Of a DNA stretch of 64,000 nt, positions 37,859 through 60,151 are shown piece by piece (the first letter of the stretch is position 1; each line of letters opens with the position of its first letter). The position numbers and the translations under genes are program-made. This DNA comes from Candidatus Saccharimonadota bacterium (GTDB lineage Bacteria > Patescibacteriota > Saccharimonadia > Saccharimonadales > Saccharimonadaceae), in assembly GCA_017557865.1 (NCBI GenBank), contig JAFYXW010000001.1, positions 62,001 to 126,000 on the forward strand, given 5' to 3'. The notes below the pieces were generated by a model that was not told the origin of the DNA, made no database searches, and saw only the letters and a list, made by a program, of their open reading frames with translations.

Positions 37859-37976
37859 ACAACAAAAAACTACCTTCGAGGAGTGTCCGCGACTAACGAG
37901 GAGCGGTTTAAGCGCCGGTCCGCCTGTAACGACAGGCCGGACCAAGCGTCTCCGAAAAGGTAGTTTTTGTTGTTTG
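37859..37976 (-). terminator. rpsG terminator with a palindromic element in its loop
   Basis: Arms AACAACAAAAA(A)CTACCTT... and ...AAGGTAGTTTTTGTTGTT close immediately after the rpsG stop (37977), with a T run on the minus strand. The loop (about 66 nt) is not a normal short loop but a GC-rich element related to those in obgE and mnmA; it contains the hairpin CCTGTAACGACAGG. Confidence 0.85.
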
Positions 37977-42076: not shown

Positions 42077-42137
42077 CCGCGCTTCGCGAACGGGCTCTCT
42101 ATAAGCTTCGTTCCAATCCGCGCTTCGCGAACGGGCT
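42077..42137. repeat. Direct repeat upstream of tRNA-Leu(UAG)
   Basis: CCGCGCTTCGCGAACGGGCT occurs at 42077-42096 and 42118-42137, 41 bp apart. Each unit contains the palindrome CGCGCTTCGCG-like core and ends in the same GCCCG as the tRNA 5' end read on the minus strand. Confidence 0.85.
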
Positions 42138-42211
42138 TTCTTAAAGTACCTTTTCATTATATCATAAAATATCAAAAAAGCGAGGGGTTTTGCCGCCTCG
42201 CTTTTTATTAA

Positions 42212-47326: not shown

Positions 47327-48772
<1,446 letters not shown>

Positions 48773-58999: not shown

Positions 59000-59028
59000 A
59001 AAAAAGACCCCTCACGGGGTTCTTTTTT
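59000..59028. terminator. Bidirectional terminator between the 58810 gene and mnmA
   Basis: AAAAAAGACCCC / GGGGTTCTTTTTT arms around a 4-nt loop. It overlaps the last codons of mnmA. Confidence 0.9.
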
Positions 59029-60151
59029 ATGCAATAATTCCGCCGCCAAGGCAGACTTCGTCGTCGTATAACACTGCGGACTGACCACTGGCAGGACGCT
59101 TGATTTCGTTTTCAAAAAATAAAGATTCGCCATTGAATTTGGCTGGGATAAGTGGAGCACGATGACGGAGGCGGACCGATACGCTCCATTCTCGACACGC
59201 TTCGTCGCGCCCGTCGTTACGGGGCTCCTCGCTAACTCGCTCCCCGTTGGTCGCGAAATGTCTCGAATGAACCGTATCGGTCCGTATGAATACGTCGCGA
59301 AGCTCCAATTTGTCTGTCCAAATGTGAGAATCGTTTAAGTTTTTGGAAACGTAAACAATATTCTTGTCGAGGTTTTTGTCCACGACATAATACGGCAAAC
59401 CATCGTTTACCTCGCCGGAAATACCAGACAGATAGAGTCCGTGGCGTTGGCCGATAGTATAAAAGATAGCGCCTTCATGGTAGCCTAGCACTTTCTCGGT
59501 CTCCACCTCGCGGATTTCACCGGGTTTAATATCTATATATTCTTTCAAAAAATCTTTCATCCCTACTTCGCCCACAAAACATACACCCATGGATTCTTTT
59601 TTGTAGGCATTATGAAGGCCTTTTTCTTCGGCTAGCTTTTTTACGTCTGGTTTTAACATATCGCCAATTGGGAAAAGGGTATGTTTTAAAGATTCATTAG
59701 AAATTCTGTAAAGAAAATAGGTTTGGTCTTTATTCTCATCGACCGCTCGCAAGAGCTGGCCGTCTTTCACCCTAGCATAATGGCCGGTGGCAATATAATC
59801 TGCGCCACGCTCCATTGCTTTTTCAAAGAAGAGTTTAAATTTAATCTCTTGGTTGCACATCACGTCCGGATTTGGAGTGTTTCCCTTTTTAAACTCATCA
59901 AGCATATATTCCACGACTTTTTCGCGGTAGGCATCTTCAAAATCCCAAACTTCAAATGGAATGCCGAGCTTTACGGCTACACGCTTAGCATCGGCAAGGT
60001 CCTCTGCCCAAGGACATCTCATACCCGGCAGGTCTTTGGACCAGTTTTTCATATAAACACCAGTTACGTCATAGCCCTGTTCTTTTAAAAGCAAAGCCGA
60101 AACAGACGAATCCACCCCGCCACTCATACCGACAAAAACTTTTTTACCCAT
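59027..60151 (-). CDS. mnmA: tRNA-specific 2-thiouridylase MnmA, with a palindromic insert
   Basis: 374 residues. The PP-loop (VGMSGGVDSSVSALLLKEQG), catalytic cysteines (NPDVMCNQEIKF and MGVCFVGEVGM) and GQRHGLYLSG are intact. It thiolates U34 of tRNA with sulfur from the adjacent cysteine desulfurase. About 29 residues in the C-terminal barrel (ATNGERVSEEPRNDGRDEA) come from a palindromic element in frame. The start at 60151 is supported by the PP-loop position. It overlaps iscS by 8 bp. Confidence 0.95.
   Translation of the reverse strand: MGKKVFVGMSGGVDSSVSALLLKEQGYDVTGVYMKNWSKDLPGMRCPWAEDLADAKRVAVKLGIPFEVWDFEDAYREKVVEYMLDEFKKGNTPNPDVMCNQEIKFKLFFEKAMERGADYIATGHYARVKDGQLLRAVDENKDQTYFLYRISNESLKHTLFPIGDMLKPDVKKLAEEKGLHNAYKKESMGVCFVGEVGMKDFLKEYIDIKPGEIREVETEKVLGYHEGAIFYTIGQRHGLYLSGISGEVNDGLPYYVVDKNLDKNIVYVSKNLNDSHIWTDKLELRDVFIRTDTVHSRHFATNGERVSEEPRNDGRDEACREWSVSVRLRHRAPLIPAKFNGESLFFENEIKRPASGQSAVLYDDEVCLGGGIIA
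59172..59284 (-). repeat. Palindromic element copy inside mnmA
   Basis: 26-nt arms (59172-59197 and 59259-59284, a few mismatches) flank a 61-nt core. Start-to-start distance is 87 nt, 29 codons. The core holds the hairpin CCCGTCGTTACGGG. Confidence 0.88.

Follow-up and report, generated by a model that had tools for sequence, protein, structure and literature searches.

A small, probably mobile hairpin element inserted in mnmA and other genes of Nanosyncoccus-type Saccharibacteria

An insert in mnmA and its sister copies

The window, by which we mean the whole 64-kb stretch of DNA that was analysed, belongs to a 694 kb genome and carries on its minus strand an mnmA gene whose protein matches the solved MnmA structures 9hlv, 2hma and 2der with E = 1e-87 or better. 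Within this gene, window positions 59172-59284 form an insert made of two inverted-repeat arms, 59172-59197 and 59259-59284, with 61 nt between them. The arms are 26 nt each and complementary at 22 of 26 positions (85%), the insert ranks second-strongest among the inverted repeats of the window, and the minus-strand reading frame of mnmA remains free of stops across it. The host gene, the parts of the insert and the sister copies found elsewhere in the window are as follows.

59027..60148 (end approximate), minus strand: mnmA (tRNA 2-thiouridylase), the host gene, ~373 aa, from its ORF and translation
59259..59284, minus strand: 5' (left) arm of the element, site-specific; inverted repeat, with a sequence unlike the arms of other copies
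59187..59259, minus strand: element core, a three-way junction; covariance model R1, cmsearch 29.5 bits, E = 6.8e-5
59236..59257, minus strand: hairpin P2 (TTCGC-GA-CC-AACG-GG-GA-GCGA) with a tandem G.A motif; from the minimum-energy fold, and the equivalent family helix covaries
59199..59232, minus strand: hairpin P3 with the conserved CCCGT-AACG-ACGGG tip; from the minimum-energy fold and the equivalent family helix
59172..59197, minus strand: 3' (right) arm of the element; its outer GGTCCGC is host V-R code, conserved in empty homologues such as L010
30230..30316, minus strand: sister copy inside uvrC, in frame; R1 95.4 bits, translation
37872..37959, plus strand: sister copy, intergenic; R1 31.7 bits
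47649..47731, plus strand: sister copy, obgE insert 1, in the frame of the mnmA copy; R1 35.0 bits, translation
48407..48493, minus strand: sister copy, obgE insert 2, element and gene on opposite strands; R1 84.2 bits, translation

The first-pass annotation of this DNA had described an mnmA insert with 26-nt arms and a 61-nt core of the same length as that of obgE insert 1, and the inverted-repeat coordinates confirmed this description: the inverted repeat of obgE insert 1 occupies 47634-47746 and is identical to the mnmA insert in geometry. The encoded peptide, ATNGERVSEEPRNDGRDEA, does resemble that of obgE insert 1, in equal frame and orientation, as had been proposed. Extra codons are likewise present, but their net number is 27-28 (81-84 nt) when counted against empty homologues, rather than the 29 given before; from block LELRDVF to block RLRHRAPL there are 53 residues here versus 25-26 in the empty homologues L010, L012, L016 and L057.

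Direct reading found the same mnmA loop filled in L007, L008, L009, L014, L017, L054, L055 and L056, and flank clustering assigned 13 copies to this C-terminal loop, with the core in both orientations. A second insertion hotspot in mnmA, near residue 157 and within HYARVKDGQ, was seen in L055, L056, L057 and L252, so that L055 and L056 carry elements at both hotspots.

A conserved core with a narrow distribution

A DNA search with a single copy returned few relatives because the arms differ between copies; a pattern for the P3 tip, followed by a covariance model, recovered the family. The model, built from 13 gapless copies, comprises an outer stem, P2 and P3, and 87% of its cells were paired, against 35-41% when the partner was slid by 1-3 columns. 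Changes on both sides were seen in 17 of 32 pairs; the P3-equivalent helix was 96% paired, with both-side changes in 8 of 15 pairs. The 244 distinct copies that we pooled have a common core and unlike arms, the core being a ~65 nt three-way junction (P2, P3 and tandem G.A motifs) that stands atop a stem of ~27 bp.

Some cores were longer by 30-36 nt (L056:518-640, L041:1477-1593, L046:1477-1593 and L141:1501-1620). A further small module, with CGCCCCTTGGGACGCG in common, lies in the P2 or P3 tip of L041, L046 and L056, apparently as a nested insertion inside the element.

Of 36 sampled genomes in the genus to which Candidatus Nanosyncoccus alces belongs, 34 had the family by the covariance model; 24 genomes of other families of the order had none. 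Among 393 genomes of the order, nearly all of the genomes compared being MAGs, it was carried by 76 from this genus and, more weakly, by 14 from two sister genera, and was absent from the other genera of the order sampled. When 84,980 species genomes were scanned with a sequence pattern, the 80 matches listed were all from Candidatus Saccharibacteria, many with rumen or gut sample names. Nothing in Rfam came close to a gathering score for the element, and the element was not found in the viral contigs searched. In our literature searches no paper linked Nanosyncoccus to palindromic sequences, and none on Saccharibacteria ranked among the best matches for insertions of hairpin or repeat elements. 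We regard this three-way-junction hairpin family as previously undescribed.

Arms and empty sites

The median arm score of the 244 copies was 18.4, compared with 4.0 for arms paired across different copies, which excludes chance as the source of an inverted repeat of the mnmA type. Arms stop sharply, at a median of 27.5 nt from the junction, with a match of ~0.3 beyond that point. Their mean complementarity is ~85%, and their sequences are unrelated between sites, even where the cores are nearly identical; the positions around the arm ends carry no more than 0.22 bit of information each.

For 50 copies we could compare an insert-free homologous allele, the best of these alleles being 75-87% identical. 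Empty sites in coding sequence held no prior inverted repeat (longest perfect repeat 4.1 bp versus 4.3 in the control, p = 0.50), and a pre-existing hairpin as the target of insertion was rejected for coding sites on this result. A few intergenic empty sites do hold an inverted repeat. In a comparison of L237:5654-5740 with the window, an intergenic copy occupies the place at which the relative bears a CCCC/GGGG-stemmed terminator hairpin, as though it had been put in the hairpin's stead. No direct target duplication flanking the arms was detected above the shifted control. The net insert had a median of 99 nt, and its length was divisible by 3 in 111 of 120 comparisons.

One arm was host-like and the other was not in 15 of the 50 copies (7 left, 8 right), while in 32 of the 50 the assignment of the host arm is ambiguous because even the nearest empty alleles are no closer than the identities given above. 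In L007, the conserved host sequence AAAGGATGTTTTCCTTCGGCTC, which encodes KDVFLRL, reappears downstream in mirrored form as GAGCGAAGGGAAACATCCTT; when L168 is set against L246, the left arm follows the code of the host and the new arm is the right one. As empty sites have no stem and one arm is new, we conclude that insertion, or a step that follows it, creates the outer stem, and does so from host sequence where this can be resolved.

Pairing is maintained on the element strand

We examined mismatches in the outer arm, defined as the part beyond the reach of the copy-finding covariance model. On the element strand these were G.U in 95 cases versus A.C in 23 (p = 1e-11), and G.U in 32 versus A.C in 10 when one copy per site was counted (p = 9e-4). 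Where genes run opposite to the element, the outer arms showed 48 G.U versus 4 A.C when read on the element strand; on the mRNA strand these copies gave 4 G.U versus 52 A.C. Were the host mRNA under constraint, the opposite ratio would be expected in such copies. Because the G.U bias persists in these opposite-strand genes, it is the element strand, rather than the host mRNA, whose pairing is constrained.

Bulges lying 12-22 nt out were on the left strand in 100 cases and on the right in 39. Among 39 pairs of probably orthologous inserts, 203 double complementary changes were counted versus 44 single ones, 30 of which were G.U. The G.U bias and the excess of double changes together indicate that the arms are kept paired and that this upkeep acts on a single strand. 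Template switching could contribute to the likeness of the arms, but it does not predict the strand preference.

Frames and orientations used within genes

By a codon-usage score, which makes the in-gene calls approximate, 128 of the 244 copies were in a gene, in frame and open, 4 were in frame with a stop and 12 lay on the same strand in another frame, giving 128:16 for in-frame open versus stopped or frame-changing in-gene copies. The remaining copies were intergenic or ambiguous, and many intergenic copies occupied terminator-like positions. At one intergenic site, represented by L073, L106, L167, L198 and L251, the arms are T-rich and the copy stands shortly upstream of a gene start, with a terminator-like look.

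The first-pass annotation had taken the repeated choice of one frame as a sign that the element is built for coding sequence, and had looked to a tally of frame and orientation over the in-gene copies. That tally revealed no orientation bias, with 63 copies in the same orientation as the gene and 51 opposite among 114 scorable copies, but it did reveal non-random frame usage: frames (+,0), (+,1), (+,2), (-,0), (-,1) and (-,2) were observed 32, 6, 25, 5, 29 and 17 times, respectively, against 18, 18, 14, 27, 22 and 16 expected under equal use of open frames (chi-square p = 6e-9). The copies in mnmA, obgE insert 1 and uvrC indeed share the commonest frame, which accounts for 28% of in-gene copies; a single genus-wide frame does not hold, and the strong form of the single-frame hypothesis was rejected, as four frames are common and both orientations occur. 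Two open frames were used far below expectation, one of which would encode a hydrophobic ..ALILALPRS.. peptide. This avoidance looks like the filtering of harmful or frame-breaking insertions, and selection against harmful peptides once insertion has occurred explains it better than does an element designed for coding sequence.

The insert in the MnmA protein

An AlphaFold model of MnmA, built from 32 family sequences, had a mean pLDDT of 86, and its sole run below 50 was residues 295-318, inside the insert. The model places this stretch in the C-terminal barrel, in the loop that joins strand 278-289 to strand 322-327, and the mnmA insert is best read as tolerated and, by this prediction, disordered. 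MnmA, ObgE, UvrC and other housekeeping proteins accept repeated loops of ~30 residues, and annotators should be cautious not to take such loops for functional domains.

Origin of the element

On balance, we favour the explanation that the mnmA insert is a copy of a small, non-coding, dispersed, probably mobile selfish hairpin element of Nanosyncoccus-type Saccharibacteria, the insertion of which copies one host flank inverted. We infer transposition from the dispersal of copies, and under the same explanation the element presumably contributes nothing that mnmA needs and is merely tolerated there. Insertion could begin with the core being joined to a host end, whereupon the self-complementary core ends would snap back and a polymerase would copy the adjoining host strand over ~18-20 nt to yield a second, inverted arm; this arm would then be joined to the other side with the loss of a few host bases. 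Selection would purge frame-breaking copies, so that the survivors would be floppy inserts of ~30 residues in tolerant surface loops. The arms would be kept paired if the element strand must fold, as ssDNA or RNA, to serve as a donor or for recognition, and template switching between the arms possibly assists this upkeep. More tentatively, the family may represent a new class of mobile element that has no outer ends of its own, in which a folded core makes a fixed-length stem by inverted copying of host DNA and the stem stays paired on the element strand.

Several points weigh against the favoured explanation: snap-back copying alone would not set bulges at repeated distances on one strand, the host arm is ambiguous in 32 of the 50 copies compared, and our searches for Y1 transposases and reverse transcriptases did not find a mobilising gene. 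A Y1 (HUH) transposase occurred in only 1 of the 36 genus genomes, one estimated to be 7% contaminated, and was rejected as a genus-wide partner, being essentially absent from the genus. Reverse transcriptase was detected in 23 of the 36 genus genomes (one below the curated cut-off) versus 1 of the 24 genomes of other families. It was missing from several copy-rich genomes, the source genome of the window included, and no element copies were found in the three genus reverse-transcriptase loci checked; reverse transcriptase is enriched in the genus but not tied to the copies or their number. Of the genus reverse-transcriptase loci L303:1249-2562 and L304:1087-2400, we take one to be DGR-like, beside a 318-aa ORF, and the other to be of Abi-type appearance.

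Alternatively, a bare GC-rich core might insert by any route and stall replication, after which quasi-palindrome correction, by ordinary replication template switching, would make and keep the arms by copying one flank onto the other and would sometimes flip the core. Template switching homogenises inverted-repeat arms and inverts spacers in coding genes (PMC8604942), and it creates and maintains hairpins (PMC8794818); the presence of both core orientations at the same sites and the predominance of double complementary changes agree with it. It predicts no strand preference, however, and the element-strand G.U excess holds regardless of gene direction; nor does it predict a fixed arm length, where the arms end sharply near 27 nt. 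It also leaves the left-strand bulge preference unexplained, and the spacer here is far longer than in known cases. We consider this alternative unlikely.

Rickettsia palindromic elements (RPEs) are taken to have a sequence that is shared over its whole length, arms included. They are short and palindromic, and lie in frame inside many housekeeping genes with one conserved encoded peptide (PMC10969869, a review). An RPE-like selfish repeat, in which a fixed palindrome spreads in frame and its arms have diverged with age, would fit inserts of ~110-150 nt that are palindromic and in frame in many unrelated housekeeping genes, as reviewed for RPEs (PMC10969869), where they are tolerated as extra peptide (here, 128 open versus 16). 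Judged through that review, the family differs from RPEs in its host-matched arms that are unlike at every site, its use of several frames and both orientations rather than one conserved peptide, its three-way-junction core and its phylum. Copies with near-identical cores share no arm sequence, yet their arms are still ~85% complementary, and in the clear cases one of the arms consists of host coding sequence, which together make an RPE-like origin quite improbable.

The attC sites of integrons have conserved cleavage (R/L) boxes. Their recombination uses the bottom strand, folded into hairpins with extra-helical bases (PMC3053210, PMC2117344 and PMC11641012), and the G.U bias and left-strand bulges of the present element would fit a similar structure-defined, strand-specific hairpin. 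A folded single strand might be moved by a dedicated recombinase that recognises the arms by their shape, a helix of ~27 bp that includes extra-helical bases; the folding of one particular strand, the constant length of the arms and the one-sided bulges all recall attC. The arm ends here have no conserved boxes, nor indeed conserved letters (the information content given above), the arms are not carried along whereas attC arms travel with the cassette, and no integrase is linked to the element, and we attach a similarly low probability to this origin.

Highly improbable is an RNA device in the host mRNA (a terminator, processing site, or pausing or bypass element) that selection would keep for what it does to the gene, for although the predicted fold of the mnmA segment is very stable (about -76 kcal/mol) and some intergenic copies lie on terminator-like hairpins, the strand test rejects mRNA-level selection, pairing being kept on the element strand even where the mRNA is the other strand, and bypass or excision needs no open frame, yet in-frame open copies prevail.

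Relation to known systems

In-frame palindromic inserts in essential genes have been described mainly from Rickettsiales; the family reported here is a second, unrelated case, in ultra-small symbiotic bacteria. We place the element among the protein-coding palindromic elements as a new variant, and see a real chance that it forms a class of its own. To our knowledge, no bacterial element copies its flank inverted to set a length during insertion, and such set-length copying, if true, would be a route of DNA insertion new for bacterial elements. The origin of these inserts is directly testable because hundreds of copies are at hand, together with empty alleles and cores in either orientation.

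The element resembles bacterial MITEs in being small, non-coding, dispersed and palindromic, but it has neither conserved terminal inverted repeats nor a direct target-site duplication. Bulged hairpins and strand-specific folding are shared with REP/REPIN sequences and their RAYT transposases, whereas Y1 transposase is essentially absent from the genus of the element. The intergenic L237 copy, in the position of a relative's terminator hairpin, recalls the stem-loop replacement of IS1272; here, however, coding empty sites have no prior inverted repeat and the element has no transposase gene.

In yeast, short fold-back inverted insertions arise when flanking DNA is copied by snap-back synthesis (PMC11724301). 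Such fold-back or template-switch hairpins are sporadic repair scars, whereas the stems of the present family always carry a conserved core at their tip and have arms of uniform length. Coding palindromes in Nematomorpha mitochondria, in which both arms encode conserved protein regions, are likewise coding sequence constrained by an inverted repeat, but the abstract of that report mentions no dispersed conserved core (PMC6649704).

Elsewhere in the window, at 42077-42146, two near-identical 29-nt repeats (CCGCGCTTCGCGAACGGGC...) adjoin a tRNA-Leu gene.
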